Part shown: piece after piece, positions 4,368 to 64,000 of the stretch | Numbering within the stretch: the first letter of the stretch is position 1 | How the letters are laid out: the number at the start of each line of letters is the position of its first letter | Source: Cercospora beticola | Taxonomy: Eukaryota > Ascomycota > Dothideomycetes > Mycosphaerellales > Mycosphaerellaceae | Assembly: GCF_033473495.1 (NCBI RefSeq) | Contig: NC_088940.1 | Location: 372,001 to 436,000 of the forward strand | Length of the DNA stretch: 64,000 nucleotides | Direction of reading: 5' to 3' | Notes under the pieces: generated by a model | What the model was told of the DNA's origin: nothing | Seen by the model: the letters and a program-made list of their open reading frames with translations, nothing else | Databases searched by the model: none | Made by a program: the position numbers and the translations under genes

Positions 4368-5776
4368 GTTTGAACGTTGGACATTCTGAGCGCAGGAGAT
4401 GTTGTCTTAGGCTGAGTGTGTTTCAGAACATCGCGAGCATAGCAAAAACGTTCTGCTAGTGAGAGAACTTTCATGATGCATATATCATTGATAAGCGGTA
4501 TCTTTTGCTTGGTCTCGGCACCGAATTGTTTTTCACTGACGGCGTCGTTAGTGAAAGTGGTGACGTTAAGATCTAAAAGTGGAACATGATTGACGGCCCG
4601 GGATAAATTTGACAGATTGTAACCATTGCGAAAGATAATATTGGTGCTTCTGAACGACGAAATCAGATTCTGTTTTGTTAGTAGGATCGAGTACTGTCAC
4701 TCGTACCCCTCGCATTCTCGCTGACCTGGCGTGACAGGTGTATCCCAGTACTACGGGGACAGGAGAGAAAGCTCCACTTTGCTTCGGTTGAGCTTGTTTA
4801 TTCCAATTCAACCAGACTCACTGTACGCATTCTTGCTGCCGCAATGTTTGGTGAAATTGTCTTGTAAAACCATAAATGGGCCAGCACATTATGCTCCTAA
4901 CAGCGCTCGTAACATTGACACTCCCGGTAAGCAGGTTCTATTAGTTTCGTCTGCCCTTGGTATATTGCTGACAGCATTCAGTCAGGGACGCTCGCCCAGC
5001 TGCCAGTTGAAGGAGGTTGCACACAGCAAAAGTGTGATGCGGCCTGCGTATCCAAGACCGATAGTACCAGTTCTTCCGTGAGACGCCCAAGACATCTAGT
5101 CGCTGACGCAGGCGAAGCTTTTGTCCCTAGGCACAGGTGGTGCACCAGACTCCTTCATCAATGCGTTGAGAATCTGTTACCACAGCTACTATAGTGCTGC
5201 ATGTGTTCCAGGTGGCTGGACCTGCGATATAAGTCGGTTATTGCCGACAATGCATCTCAGCCACTACTGACACTTTACCCCTGCCATCCCGACAACCAGC
5301 AGACAGCCCACGACTTCGCTCAATGCGTTATTTTGAATGCCAAAAAGAGCAAGACTGGTAGAAACTGGGGAGCTTCTGGAGTGGCGAATGCTGCAGTGAT
5401 TCGCGGGATTCGAGAGCTTGGAGTTGCAACAATGGATGTGAAGATGGGAAAGTGCCGTGTCCGTGGTGGAAAGAGGAGAACATTCCAGAGGCGCTGTCGA
5501 GTTACTGCTCGTGACTGGAGCGACTTGGGTAAGACACGAAGTCGAGTTGTGGTCTCGTTCTCATCGATGCTGCTCTTCGGGCGAAGCTGGCTCACTTGCT
5601 CACCAGTACGACGCAGGCGCCGTTTGATGCCAAGCTTGCCGTTTGTGACTTCACTTGGCCTGCATAAGGCTCCACCCTGCGCGGCTGTCCAGCCAAGTCC
5701 GCGCGCAAACATCGTCGCATTGCTCTACTCACGCATTTCAACTCTCTGGCACTACCAGAACAGTGGATCGAGGGAT
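4368..5776. other. Intergenic region of 1.4 kb with no supported gene
   Basis: Open frames exist on both strands (for example 5201-5854 on plus and 5320-5712 on minus), but they overlap one another, lack recognisable domains and have no codon bias. The plus frame runs into the first BTB exon only by chance continuity, since the BTB start at 5777 lies inside it. No repeat or tRNA is seen. Confidence 0.4.
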
Positions 5777-57304: not shown

Positions 57305-59077
57305 ATGCCACCAAGATTCTCAATTCCACGACTATCATCCGTGCGACCACGTCCATTTCAAGTCTTTGGCAGGCTGAACACAAGATGCATGCCTGCAGCT
57401 AGCGCACGAAGATATGCTTCCTCCTCGCCAGAAACGGCAAAAAGCCAACCGACTTGGTTCGGAGGTGTAGTCTTCGGCATTGGCCTTGCAGCGACCATCT
57501 TTGCAGGATCTTTTGTGTATAGAGCTTCTGCGAATAAAATCAGTTATGCAAGTCATGCACAGATGCTCAAGGTCAGTGGAGTTGGTAATAGGTCTTGTTG
57601 AAGAAGTGCGCTTACAGAAATAGGCTGCTAATGAGATTGTAACAATACTGGGAGAAGACGCTGTCAGCTTTGACGAAGATGTGATTGAGCATCACGGACG
57701 CTCTGACTGGTCTACTTCCAACACGGCAGTACGTCCCGTCGCCGTAGTCTACCCCAAGACCACAGAAGATGTTGTCGCAATTGCTCGTGCATGTAACAAG
57801 CACAACGTGCCTATCGTACCTTTCGGTGCAGGATCTAGTGTCGAAGGAAACTTCTCTTCACCGCACTCTGGTATCTGCGTGGACTTTACACATATGGATC
57901 AAGTCATTGCTTTCCGACCCGAGGATATGGACATCACAGTCCAGCCTGGTGTGAATTGGGTTGATCTGAACAACAAGATTGCAGAAAGTGGCCTCTTCTT
58001 ACCTCTTGATCCATCGCCTACGGCACAGATCGGAGGCATGGTCGCGACGAATTGCTCGGGCACGAATGCAATGCGTTATGGGACAATGAAGGATTGGGTG
58101 GTGAATCTGACTGTCGTCTTGGCAGACGGACAAGTCATCAAGACGCGCCGCAGACCCCGGAAGACCTCAGCAGGCTACAACCTTACCTCTCTCTTCGTTG
58201 GAGCTGAGGGAACGCTCGGCATGGTTACAGAAGCGACACTGAAACTCGCGCCAATCCCACAAGACACCAGTGTCGCAATCGTGAGCTTCCCTACCATCAA
58301 GGAAGCAGCGATCGCAGCAAGCAGTATCATTCGATCAGGCATCCAGCTTGCCGCATTGGAGATGATGGATGACCTACAAATGCAAGTTGTGAATCGACAT
58401 GGGAGTGCCGCTGTAAGGAAGCGAAAGTGGCTCGAAGAACCAACGCTATTTCTCAAATTCTCCGGTACGACGGACGCGATCAAAAGCGATGTCAAGCGCG
58501 TCGGTCAACTCATCAAGCCTCACAACCCCAGAGAATTCATCTTCGCCAAAAGCGAGCAAGAGAAGCAAGATCTCTGGGCTGCGAGGAAAGAAGCACTATT
58601 CACGATGGTCAACACTCGTCCTGAAGGTACCGAGATTTGGTCCACAGACGTCGCTGTCCCGCTCTCCCGATTGACAGATATCATTGAAGTGACCAAGCAG
58701 GATTGTAGCAGTTTGGGCTTGTTCGCTTCTGTTATTGGTCATGTCGGAGATGCAAATTTCCACACGGCAATGTTCTTCGACCCTAAGAACCCGGAACAGA
58801 AAGCTGCGGTGAGCAAGGTCGTACACGATATGATGGACCGGGCGTTGGAGATGGAGGGCACTGTTTCCGGTGAACATGCTATCGGGATCGGCAAGAAGGA
58901 GAGTTTGCTTGATGAGCTAGGAATTGAGACGATCGATTTTATGCGGTCGCTGAAAAGAGCGGTTGATCCTAAATGGTAAGGACTTGTTGCATTCTTCGTT
59001 CCAACTGAAGGCTCTCGCTGATCATGAACAGGATCATGAATCCAGGCAAGGTGTTCGACCTGCCCAAGAACAAATAG
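57305..59077 (+). CDS. DLD1: Mitochondrial D-lactate dehydrogenase (cytochrome), FAD-linked
   Basis: Three exons (57305-57571, 57624-58975, 59032-59077) give 554 residues. The donor of intron 1 is the uncommon GTCAGT; the last exon adds IMNPGKVFDLPKNK after KW, completing the family C-terminus. The enzyme oxidises D-lactate to pyruvate and passes electrons to cytochrome c in the intermembrane space. Residues 1-45 form an Arg/Ser-rich presequence and 50-75 an inner-membrane anchor (WFGGVVFGIGLAATIFAG). The PCMH-type FAD domain starts with RPVAVVYPKTTEDVVAIARAC and holds VPFGAGSSVEGNFSSP, LDPSPTAQIGGMVATNCSGTNAMRYG and GTLGMVTEATLKLAPIP. The C-terminal substrate domain includes VIGHVGDANFHTAMF (with the conserved HVGDGNFH-like motif carrying Ala for the usual Gly) and GTVSGEHAIGIGKK. 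It is complete and intact. Confidence 0.95.
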
Positions 59078-59297
59078 TCACGCTGGACTCATCAACGACA
59101 TGCCATCTCATTATAACAACACCTCCAGCTCGTGGCTCTCGTGATCCGAAGCAAATCCGTCATCTACAAAAGCTCAAAGCACTCGAATGCCGCTGAAGGA
59201 TCCGACGCCACGCTACCATAGAGGGTGCTGCATGAAGAACCCCGCAGCAAATCAACCTGGATTGCACAAGCTCGACTGACTTCACATTGGGCGCAAT

Positions 59298-60290
59298 ATG
59301 GCCTCTAACCACGCAGAAAAGAGCCCACCATCCTATGCAGAAGAATGGCTCGCAGCCGAAGCTATGGCTGGAGGCCGCAACGTGGTCACCGGCTCAATAT
59401 CAGAAATGGCCGAAGCATTCAACGCGGTTTTCGCCGCCGCCAAATCACTCCTGCCTCCACCAGACGATAGTGTCACCACTGCAGACCACAAAACTGCCGA
59501 AGGAGTTCTGATTCGAGAGTACACTCCCTTCAACCTTCCCGCCAACGCCCCAACAGGTCTCTACATCCACTCCGGAGGCTGATGTCTCGGATACATTGAC
59601 CACGAAGACCACCTTACACGCGCCCTAGCCAAAGACATTCCCGCTCGACTCATCTCAGTAGAATACCGCCTCGCACCTCAACATCCCTTTCCAGCAGCCC
59701 TCGAAGACTGTCTCTCCGCCTGGCGCTGGATAACCCAACAACCACACATTCCTCCAACCTCACCCTTCTTCATTCTCGGCGGGTCCGCAGGCGGGAATCT
59801 CGCCCTAACAACAACTCTCAGCATCCTCCAACAATCCAACCTCCGACCGCCCACGGCAATTCTCCCTCTCTGTCCTTCAGTCTGCTTCCCCCAAGCCTGG
59901 TCCCCCCTCCCACCAACTCTCTCAAAATGCATCAAACCAAACGCCTTCTACGCCGATGCAGCAGCAATCAATCGCACTTCGCTCCAGATTTGCACTGAAG
60001 CCTATCTTGGCGAAAAGAACGACCCTTTGAACCCTTCCATCTCCCCGATCTTCGACTCGTACTTGTCCAAATTACCTCCAGTATATCTCACGACCAGCGA
60101 TAAAGATCCCTTGCACGATGATGCGGAGATGTTGGAGTATCAGCTGAAAGAATTGGGCAAAGATATCGAAGTGAAAGACTATAAAGGCTATCCGCACTTC
60201 TTCCACGCCGTACCAGTTTTGGAAGCGATGAAGCAGTTTCATGAGGACTTAGTAGCAGCTGTGAGGAAGAGGTGTGGTCCTCCATCATAA
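59298..60290 (+). pseudogene. Alpha/beta hydrolase (HSL-like esterase) with one in-frame TGA
   Basis: A 331-codon reading frame is interrupted once, by TGA at 59580-59582, directly after the HSGG oxyanion motif. Homologues usually have Trp at this point (HSGGWCLG), so a TGG to TGA transition is the likely cause. Everything downstream is intact and in frame: CLGYIDHEDH, SVEYRLAPQHPFPAALEDC, the nucleophile elbow GGSAGG near residue 170, the acid in TTSDKDPLHDDAE and the His in YPHFFHAVP. The family hydrolyses short esters or lipids. No donor or acceptor pair around 59560-59600 could remove the stop. It could be a strain-specific null allele, a recent pseudogene, a sequencing error or, less likely, a readthrough product. 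It follows DLD on the same strand by 220 bp. Confidence 0.85.
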
Positions 60291-60498: not shown

Positions 60499-63400
60499 TC
60501 AAACAGGCTCAACAGTTCTATTGCCCGTGCCCGCACGCACAGGACTCTCAGGAATGGCGACGCCACCCTCCGCTTCAGCAAGTCGAAGCTTATTCAAAGC
60601 TTCCGACATACACATTTCCGTCGGTGAGCCTCTACTACTCGCAGGACGGCTGCTGATAGGTTCAGTCAAGACAGGAAGTGAGACCTCGGTAGCACCTAGC
60701 GTAGCTCGAATGTCCTCAAGAAGGAGATCCATAGGACAGATGTAAGTTCGACCAGCCCGAGAGGCAAGGACGTGGCCGCAGACTCTGCCGTCATCGTTGC
60801 CAATCACCCACGCGCCAGAGTCACCGCCAATGCCAAAGTTGCCAGCGACTGTCCAACTCGCAGAGAAAGTGCTTCGACCATGGATCTTTACAAGCTCCAT
60901 AGTGCTCGAGATGGTGCCGTGACCGAGGCCACTTGTGCGGCCTAGACAGTGCACTTTGGTGCAAGCCAAGTCATCGCTCTTACGAATCGAAGTGGGAAAT
61001 GAGTTACCCTTACGATCGCTGCGGCCTCTGCAATAGCGTCGTCCCCCTTTAATAATGTTGTAAGGCTGAACGCGAGGCGGGACGAGCTCGAATAGTGCCC
61101 AATCAATCTCTTGTGGCAATGATTGACTGATACTTTTGAAACCGCCCTCCAGAGACTGCGCGGTGCGTCGCAGTCCAGAAGAGGCATGTACTTGGCCAAG
61201 GCGATAGGAGAGTAGATGATCTTCGTCAATGCCGCAGTCGGCGTCGTCCTCGTCATCCTCTTCGGCATGAAGGTCAAGATCAATGGCATCGTCCAGTGCT
61301 GGCTGAGTGATAGCAATCTCTTCCATGTCACCGGGAACGATGCCCGGACAGTCACCAGCATCATCGTGAAGAGGCAATGGCATCTCGTCGGAGGAGTGCG
61401 CAGAAGGCGGGCGGACAGTACTGAGATCGTCCTCCTCGTCTGACCCTTCTGAACTACCAAGGCTCGAGGTTTCAGACTCGTCGTCGTCAACATCATCGGC
61501 ATCATTGGCCTCGCCCGCTTCATCATCCGGGTCGTCCTCTGGCTCTAGCATGTGGTGAACACTCATGCCATAAGGGTGGCCGTCGACAAGCACGACACCG
61601 CCGAAAGACACGGGTGGCAGGTGTTCGTCATATCGGTATGCACCGATTGAAGCACCGCACATGGGTTGCTCTTGGTAGTCCGGGTTGGCCGCTTTCTCGA
61701 CATTTGGATCTCGCCAAGGTGCCATGCTTCGGCGAGTATGATTCGCGTCAGATGCTGCGCGCTCCCTCCTCGACCTTCGGCATCGCTTGATGACTTCCTT
61801 CTTGACGCGGATATCGTAAATGCTGGGATCATACTTGAGATGACGCTTGAGACAATGCTTGACCTTCGCTGTCGAACTGCAGCCGACAATGATGGTTGGT
61901 CGCGCGGTCTCTCTTGACTCACCATAAGGTGCCAGACGTATCGAGCTTGACTCAGCCAGACCTTTCAATGCCTTTTCTGCCAGTGTGAGAACCTGGTAGC
62001 ACATAGTGCTCTGCCAGTGGTCCAGAATATGTTGCGGAAGTGTCACATCCAGGAACTCTTCGCGCTTGGACTTGCTGCGCCGCTCGGTCGACCGTTCAGC
62101 CTCTTGCTGTGCAGCTTCTCGTGCTCTCTGCGCAGCCTTGCATTCTCTCCAACGCTTCTGGATCAAGGTGACCCGTCGCTTGAAGTCGTTCAACGAAGGC
62201 TGTGCCTTTGATTGCAAGCGGTCCTTGAAGAGCTCGATCTGCTCACGAGCTTCGGCCACACTGTGGCGAGGTGAGGCATGTAGTGCCCTAGCAGAGGCTT
62301 GTCGCGCCACATTTGGTTCTCTCATGGACGGCATGCCCATGCTGTGATGCCGGTATGGCCCCGCAACAGATTTATTCGAAAGGGATGGTGTGCGAGAGAG
62401 CTCAACCGGTTCTGACATTTGTCTTGTAAGAGAGCCGACTTGCGATGGTTGCCTGACAGCCTTCCTTTGGATTGGAATATAAGGCTGCACTGGCGAGGAT
62501 GGTTCGGAAATGAGCTCAGAGGCAGGAATGAGTTCTGTAGACGTGCCGACATCGTCCAACAGGCAGCATCTTTTGAGAAATTGTAGAAGTATCCCATAGG
62601 TGCCCTCGGGAGTGAGTCTTGCGGTGTCTGTATCGTCAGACAGTCGTAGACACGTCTCAACAGCTCGCATATATGCCGAGCCACACTTTGATGCCAGCTT
62701 GGGTATCCAGATCTTTTCGATGCGGAGCTTGAAGTCGGCAAGGGTGTACTTGGGTTTGTAAAGGTCGCCAATTGGTGTCCATAAGCCGATCTCGAGGAGG
62801 ATCAAGCCGAGCCCATACAGATCATACTTCATGTCGAAAGGGAACTCTCTGTTCGCACTGCTTGGCTCATCGAGTGGATGTCTGTAGACGTTGAAGTCGG
62901 TCGCTCGGCGGACACCTTCAATGTTGCATTTGGAGAAAAGGTCGAATGACGCCCAAAGAGGCTTCCTAAGCTGCTCTAAGCGGTTTGCTTCTGTCTCGTC
63001 CGCAGTGGTGGTGAAAATGACGCTACTGCTGTTGATGTTGCCGTGGGCCAACTGGCGGGCATGCAATGCATGTAACTGCTCGGTCAGACGTAGGGCCATG
63101 CGGAATCTGTGCTCGAGTGCTGGAGCTGCCATTTCAGTTGCGGAGCTTTGCGCCTTATTGCCTTTCTGGACAAGCTTGAGCAAACTGAGCGGTGCAAGTG
63201 CTTGAGCAGAGCTGGTGATATGCAACTTGTTGTGTATGGAATACGGCAAGTCATAGACAAGGCCGATCCGTGGCTGGTCAGCATCTTCGAAGTAGCCAAG
63301 CAAGCTGAGGTTCGTCTGAGATTCTGCACGCATCGGCTGAAAGCTCGCCGCAAGAGCCTCGAGGCGCTGTAAGGGCGGCGGTACACCTGTCTGCCGATAC

Positions 63401-64000
63401 GTAGCATCGTAGTTGGCGTATTCCACCAGCACAGGAACTTCCGCGGCGGAACTGGCAAGCGCAGTCTGTACACTCTCGGATACATTATTGCGGATCAACA
63501 TTGCCACCATCCGGGTTGTTGATGGCACACCGACGGCCTCGTACGGAGGTGGACCTTCAGCAGGCAACTTCAGAGCTGAAGTCTCGATTCGTGACGGTAA
63601 TCCAGCATAGGGGGAGAGGAACGGTTTCGAGAAGGCCGGATTCACGAGCGTAGTCTCTGAAGAGGCAAACGACTGCGTGGGGTAAATGCCTTTACCGCTG
63701 CGTCTGCTCTTTTTCGAGGCAAGAGGGTCAAATGATGTCGGCCCAGAATCGAATTGAGGATGCTCGCCCCTCGCGAGCGCCCTTCGGGACTGGGTCAGAT
63801 CGTACAGCGTGTCGATGGAGGTCGTCAAATCGTGCAGAAGGTCTTCATAACGGGCTTCATCAAAGACGGCCGCTTTTTGTGGATGGGCCTCGCCCTCCTT
63901 GGCCAGTGGCTGACTCGCCTTTTGGATCCTCTCGGCTTCCTCTGTCACTTCGTGGATATTCGTGAGTACGCTCTCAACCGTCTCCGTAAGGCCTGCCTTG
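60499..64000 (-). CDS. Pseudokinase-trypsin-like protease fusion, HeLo-kinase type, 5' end cut
   Basis: The frame is open from the stop at 60499 to the window edge, with no ATG near the visible start; the GTG at 63948 is not a real start. Over 1165 residues are visible. The first 65 are helical and contain ARYEDLLHDLTTSIDTLYDL, similar to the segment between a HeLo domain and its kinase in fungal cell-death proteins. A kinase fold spans about 145-465 (numbered from 63948). PVLVEYANYD has no lysine in strand 3, HGNINSSS stands for HRDxxxxN, SFDLF for DFG, while the structural YDLYGLGLILLEIGLW is kept. It is therefore a pseudokinase. An IQ-like basic helix (LIQKRWRECKAAQ) follows near 620. The C-terminal third has a chymotrypsin-order triad: His near 796 (GMSVHHML), Asp near 948 (EIDWALFEL) and Ser near 1044 (GGDSGAWVIG). 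An acidic insert lies between His and Asp. Confidence 0.82.
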   Translation of the reverse strand, partial: KAGLTETVESVLTNIHEVTEEAERIQKASQPLAKEGEAHPQKAAVFDEARYEDLLHDLTTSIDTLYDLTQSRRALARGEHPQFDSGPTSFDPLASKKSRRSGKGIYPTQSFASSETTLVNPAFSKPFLSPYAGLPSRIETSALKLPAEGPPPYEAVGVPSTTRMVAMLIRNNVSESVQTALASSAAEVPVLVEYANYDATYRQTGVPPPLQRLEALAASFQPMRAESQTNLSLLGYFEDADQPRIGLVYDLPYSIHNKLHITSSAQALAPLSLLKLVQKGNKAQSSATEMAAPALEHRFRMALRLTEQLHALHARQLAHGNINSSSVIFTTTADETEANRLEQLRKPLWASFDLFSKCNIEGVRRATDFNVYRHPLDEPSSANREFPFDMKYDLYGLGLILLEIGLWTPIGDLYKPKYTLADFKLRIEKIWIPKLASKCGSAYMRAVETCLRLSDDTDTARLTPEGTYGILLQFLKRCCLLDDVGTSTELIPASELISEPSSPVQPYIPIQRKAVRQPSQVGSLTRQMSEPVELSRTPSLSNKSVAGPYRHHSMGMPSMREPNVARQASARALHASPRHSVAEAREQIELFKDRLQSKAQPSLNDFKRRVTLIQKRWRECKAAQRAREAAQQEAERSTERRSKSKREEFLDVTLPQHILDHWQSTMCYQVLTLAEKALKGLAESSSIRLAPYGESRETARPTIIVGCSSTAKVKHCLKRHLKYDPSIYDIRVKKEVIKRCRRSRRERAASDANHTRRSMAPWRDPNVEKAANPDYQEQPMCGASIGAYRYDEHLPPVSFGGVVLVDGHPYGMSVHHMLEPEDDPDDEAGEANDADDVDDDESETSSLGSSEGSDEEDDLSTVRPPSAHSSDEMPLPLHDDAGDCPGIVPGDMEEIAITQPALDDAIDLDLHAEEDDEDDADCGIDEDHLLSYRLGQVHASSGLRRTAQSLEGGFKSISQSLPQEIDWALFELVPPRVQPYNIIKGGRRYCRGRSDRKGNSFPTSIRKSDDLACTKVHCLGRTSGLGHGTISSTMELVKIHGRSTFSASWTVAGNFGIGGDSGAWVIGNDDGRVCGHVLASRAGRTYICPMDLLLEDIRATLGATEVSLPVLTEPISSRPASSRGSPTEMCMSEALNKLRLAEAEGGVAIPESPVRAGTGNRTVEPV

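Follow-up and report, generated by a model that had tools for sequence, protein, structure and literature searches.

A probable SltB orthologue in Cercospora beticola with a HeLo-like N-terminus and a chymotrypsin-like protease half

A minus-strand reading frame at one end of the window (the whole 64,000-nt stretch of DNA analysed here, G000:C6:372001-436000) encodes a degenerate kinase followed by a trypsin-like protease. The question is whether such a protein is a cell-death switch, as the first-pass annotation guessed, or belongs to some other pathway. The gene (60499..64000, minus strand) is very probably the Dothideomycete orthologue of SltB, an intracellular stress-signalling protease, and a known stress pathway replaces the death switch. 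Proteins of this kind have been described before; the apparent novelties lie in a prodomain of HeLo origin and a NAL1-like protease half.

Extent of the gene

The ORF reading shows a frame open from the window edge to a stop at 60499. In the contig (L006) it continues beyond the edge to an ATG at L006 4233, 233 nt outside, so that residues 79-1244 are encoded in the window and residues 1-78 at L006 4001-4233. Read from the contig, the complete gene has 1244 codons in one exon, with no stop and no apparent intron, and the start Met is the same in aligned relatives. The single uninterrupted frame first described from the window alone stands, and the upstream contig gives one in-frame gene of 1244 codons where two genes and an intergenic region had been considered. 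Plain residue numbers below refer to the 1244-aa protein, and "frame residues" to the 1166-residue part encoded in the window.

Likeness to SltB and distribution of relatives

SltB of Aspergillus nidulans (AN6132, 1272 residues) combines a pseudokinase with a trypsin-like protease (Mellado et al., 2015, PMC4557415). Loss of SltB has much the same effects as loss of SltA, namely sensitivity to cations and alkalinity and enlarged vacuoles, and slt mutations suppress certain vps nulls (PMC4557415). By self-cleavage SltB sheds its pseudokinase prodomain, and it then cuts SltA from 78 to 32 kDa; SltA drives sltB and binds AGGCA (PMC11011638, PMC5541321).

The window protein likewise has a pseudokinase and then a trypsin-like protease in one chain (1244 aa vs. 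1272 in SltB), lacks VAIK, HRD and DFG, and conserves the His and Ser. The likeness is drawn from the published description and from residue offsets. Two published SltB mutations affect Phe1126 and Gly1156, at -16 and +14 from Ser1142, and the same offsets from Ser1139 here lead to Phe1123 and Gly1153. This agreement is weak evidence, since 144 of 333 proteins have the Phe and 295 of 333 have the Gly.

Protein searches at E <= 0.001 returned 767, 285 and 381 proteins (about 8000 candidates scored and the best 120 listed each time; the three totals may overlap). Among the matches listed, the named ones come from genera of Dothideomycetes in the first search, from Trichophyton of the Eurotiomycetes in the second, and from Leotiomycetes and Sordariomycetes, with Neurospora crassa, in the third. 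This distribution agrees with the reported restriction of SltB, for which 69 homologues were found in Pezizomycotina only, genomes with one Slt gene always having the other (PMC4557415). Hundreds of proteins share the architecture of pseudokinase and protease, which a 2015 paper had already reported under the name SltB (PMC4557415); the earlier impression of an unusual combination is wrong. Literature searches found no paper on DUF7580, and none joining HeLo, a trypsin-like protease and a fungal NLR.

A few relatives have other arrangements. In P0164 and P0172, automatic gene models from Pleosporales, an SltB protease half follows unrelated N-termini; the 2015 survey reported no gene consisting of the C-terminal part alone (PMC4557415). 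In P0209 one gene model combines the protease half with an N-terminal domain of Bud6 (PF23153, E 1e-13), possibly two merged genes. P0275, an SltB-like fungal protein, is recorded as belonging to a metagenome assembly of a Rickettsiales bacterium, a label that probably reflects contamination.

Protease halves with other N-termini, as in the two Pleosporales models, would also fit a reading in which the window gene is not an orthologue but a lineage-specific SltB paralogue with another role. The genome, however, has one full-length copy, its five other matches spanning the kinase region only, and the full architecture is kept; the paralogue reading is very unlikely.

HeLo-like region and pseudokinase

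The first-pass annotation had suggested that a HeLo bundle might lie beyond the window edge, and the N-terminus does match the domain. PF14479, whose cut-off is 23.2 bits, matches residues 32-115 with 33.3 bits (E 5.6e-8) when the 211-residue N-terminal piece is searched, and with 20.5 bits, below the cut-off, when the whole protein is. Among the best 120 of the 381 relatives in the third search, 96 have the domain. Helices predicted by AlphaFold2, and those of the relative P0092, extend the helical region to about residue 154, and the C-terminal part of this region occupies 63772..64000 (minus strand) of the window.

The domain differs from canonical ones at its start. In the cytotoxic HeLo domain of HET-S, a hydrophobic N-terminal helix is the membrane-inserting element. 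No such helix was found in a 19-residue hydropathy scan of the N-terminus of the SltB-like protein: N-terminal to the anchor motif the highest mean reaches 0.21, and the medians of the same measure are 0.09 in 109 relatives and -0.09 in 110 (relatives with fewer than 30 residues before the anchor left out). Four other HeLo frames of the same genome, which do have the helix, reach 1.01-1.66; these come from five other HeLo loci, of which L017, with an unclear start, was omitted and L016 was given a hand-chosen start. As the PF14479 match also begins only at profile position 23-24 of 205, the membrane-disrupting bundle that had been envisaged is not borne out, and by its sequence the prodomain looks HeLo-derived, a remnant of the domain. 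The word HeLo is not found in the available text of two Slt papers searched for it (PMC4557415, PMC11011638). One of the five other loci, L015 (G000:C5:2288300-2291200), is a frame of 591 codons in which a canonical HeLo domain and a pseudokinase stand with no protease attached.

The pseudokinase fold occupies 62548..63618 (minus strand; frame residues 128-484) by AlphaFold2 and motif alignment. The model is confident over about this range, where a kinase fold had been expected at 145-465. Glu271 occupies the position of the strand-3 Lys, HGN replaces HRD (63037-63045) and SFD replaces DFG (62941-62949), all placed by eye, so the degenerate kinase described earlier, without the strand-3 Lys and the HRD and DFG Asp residues, is confirmed. 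In two aligned sets of 121 and 112 proteins, no row has Lys at the strand-3 position (Glu in 114/121 and 109/112, the rest gaps or Asp) and none has Asp at the DFG Asp position. The HRD Asp is replaced by Asn in 114/121 and 102/112 and retained in six and one, respectively. The kinase motifs are thus broken throughout both sets, while the protease residues described below are retained. In P0116-P0120, of Pleosporales type, the catalytic loop is HKD with the following Asn kept, but these relatives too have neither the Lys of strand 3 nor the Asp of DFG.

A profile of the whole-protein family gave weak kinase matches among PDB sequences. The best is a plant receptor kinase (E 0.0078), and the MLKL pseudokinase is second and third (E 0.013 and 0.028, also weak). 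MLKL and fungal HeLo-pseudokinase proteins such as L015 resemble the window protein in having a pseudokinase behind a HeLo or four-helix bundle; unlike it, they are without a protease. Together with the PF14479 match, the predicted pseudokinase fold and the name 'het-s domain protein' carried by several relatives, these MLKL matches are what a cell-death protein might be expected to show, with the HeLo domain perforating membranes, an MLKL-like pseudokinase as gate and the protease serving as the arm that releases or executes. Such a function is nevertheless highly improbable here: the hydrophobic helix is lacking in this protein and in both groups of relatives, unlike the four other HeLo frames of the genome, and the same architecture is reported for stress signalling (PMC4557415).

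Between the pseudokinase and the protease half lies a poorly conserved linker (62200..62547, minus strand), mostly with pLDDT below 50, which may be the region of self-cleavage.

Protease half

The AlphaFold2 run on the 1166 window residues had a mean pLDDT of 70.1 and a pTM of 0.46. Besides the kinase region, it is confident over an alpha/beta domain (61798..62034, minus strand; frame residues 656-734) and over the second barrel (about frame residues 930-1110) of the chymotrypsin-like region that follows (60661..61665, minus strand; frame residues 779-1113). Confidence in the first barrel is mixed, with 10-residue means that range from 51 to 89 near the His and from 43 to 68 in the direction of the Asp.

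The three motifs pointed out in the first reading were located on the minus strand in chymotrypsin order: VHHML at 61546-61560 (His893 and His894 at 61552..61557), DWALFEL at 61084-61104, and GGDSGAW at 60808-60828. The presumed triad Asp is Asp1044, within EIDW (61102..61104), and the presumed nucleophile Ser1139 (60817..60819). His894 is the likelier catalytic residue of the His pair, going by trypsin motifs. The His motif is followed by an acidic insert (61354..61545, minus strand; residues 897-960) that is 41% Asp plus Glu.

All four positions (His, His, Asp and Ser) are kept in 337 of 349 aligned proteins, these being the SltB-like protein and 348 search matches, fragments and near-duplicates included. 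Of the remaining 12, ten have gaps only, one has Asn at the Asp position and a gap at the Ser, and one has Thr for Ser. Conservation of these residues in the alignment is beyond chance. The Thr belongs to P0164, which reads GGDTGAW.

That the C-terminal half is a pseudoprotease, binding partners without cutting them, is very unlikely. The Thr of P0164, the mixed confidence of the first barrel (the His-Asp-Ser geometry resting on sequence positions) and the lack of a match to any curated protease family would suit such a reading. The 337 proteins with all four positions argue against it, as do the reported cleavages of SltB itself and of SltA (PMC11011638, PMC5541321).

The aligned family also bears on SltB, whose triad Asp was left undecided among residues 1037, 1046 and 1049 (PMC4557415). 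The near-invariant Asp is that of EIDW/EVDW, corresponding to Asp1044 here. A second Asp is found nine residues after it in 79 of 332 proteins and nine before it in 21, and at -3, +3, -12 or +12 in none of the 332. Spacing between Asp and Ser is 105, as Asp1037 would need, in none of 332, 96 in 12 and 93 in two. With no relative having a second Asp three or twelve residues away, the alignment disfavours Asp1049; Asp1037 and Asp1046 stay as candidates.

No Pfam protease family matched the protease half at E <= 10; PF00089, searched over the whole genome, had five matches, none at this gene. The single protein had two chance-like ribosomal matches among PDB sequences, and a protease profile searched against PDB chains at E <= 10 gave three low-complexity matches only, with no NAL1. 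A possible fold match of the predicted structure is NAL1, the rice serine protease NARROW LEAF 1. For a second structure model, the Foldseek and VIA rows listed are kinases only, and NAL1 is not among the best 50. NAL1 is not known to have a HeLo or pseudokinase region. A literature search found no paper on NAL1 structure, and no catalytic triad for comparison appears in the available text of two NAL1 papers (PMC12915138, PMC10970654) or of two papers on HeLo and NLR effectors (PMC12881547, PMC9815663).

The published comparison is a different one: the papers liken the protease of SltB to Ssy5 of Saccharomyces (peptidase S64), with a low similarity of 25% over 68 aa (PMC4557415), whereas the possible fold match here is NAL1. 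PF08192, the Ssy5 family, had no match in the window protein at E <= 10. Ssy5 is a fungal signalling protease with a prodomain that acts on transcription factors, a plan probably shared by the SltB-like protein.

Proposed mechanism

By analogy with A. nidulans SltB, the window protein presumably cleaves itself and processes SltA. The HeLo remnant and pseudokinase would form the prodomain and sensor platform, and the alpha/beta domain and chymotrypsin-like region the enzyme. At rest, the HeLo-pseudokinase half would most likely hold the protein in check and restrain the protease. Cation or alkaline stress would then lead the protease to cut itself free of the prodomain, the freed protease would trim SltA, a zinc-finger factor, to the short form that is active, and short SltA would in turn drive sltB. 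The acidic insert after the catalytic His could, speculatively, respond to cations or cover the site. Control of the protease by a pseudokinase in cis, first proposed from the window sequence, agrees with the published release of the SltB prodomain by self-cleavage (PMC11011638).

As to origin, SltB may be a tamed death-type protein, in which an ancestral, MLKL-like HeLo-pseudokinase lost its membrane helix and joined a NAL1-like protease, the old death gate becoming a removable sensor and brake. This is a tentative proposal, somewhat less likely to be right than wrong. Were it true, the HeLo-pseudokinase pair would be a general switch module gating either pores or proteases, and how the Slt system arose and is gated, as a converted death module, would become directly testable. 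For the Slt pathway itself, the analysis adds a prodomain that looks HeLo-derived, a possible structural relative of the protease half, and a likely triad Asp from family-wide conservation.

Upstream region and neighbouring genes

Within 693 bp upstream of the SltB-like gene are six AGGCA/TGCCT words, two of which form the palindrome TGCCTAGGCA, spotted by eye after the literature motif was known and before the words were counted. Across the window, a stretch of 693 bp has 1.5 of these words on average, and six are reached in 0.16% of stretches. When the region itself is shuffled with dinucleotides preserved, p is 0.018; of 512 pentamer pairs, 7 occur six times. The words are compatible with SltA feedback on the gene, as a modest sequence signal.

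Immediately upstream and in the same orientation lies a gene (L006 about 4927-5660) that looks by eye like a V-ATPase proteolipid subunit. Three relatives from other genera, P0034, P0037 and P0088, carry the name V-type proton ATPase 16 kDa proteolipid subunit, which they seem to owe to the gene next to them. At about 1250-1300 aa they are of SltB length, which suggests that the neighbourhood is kept in those genera. On the other side of the gene, two plus-strand frames resemble, on inspection by eye, a D-lactate dehydrogenase-type FAD enzyme (57624-58979) and an alpha/beta hydrolase with GGSAGG (59280-60290).
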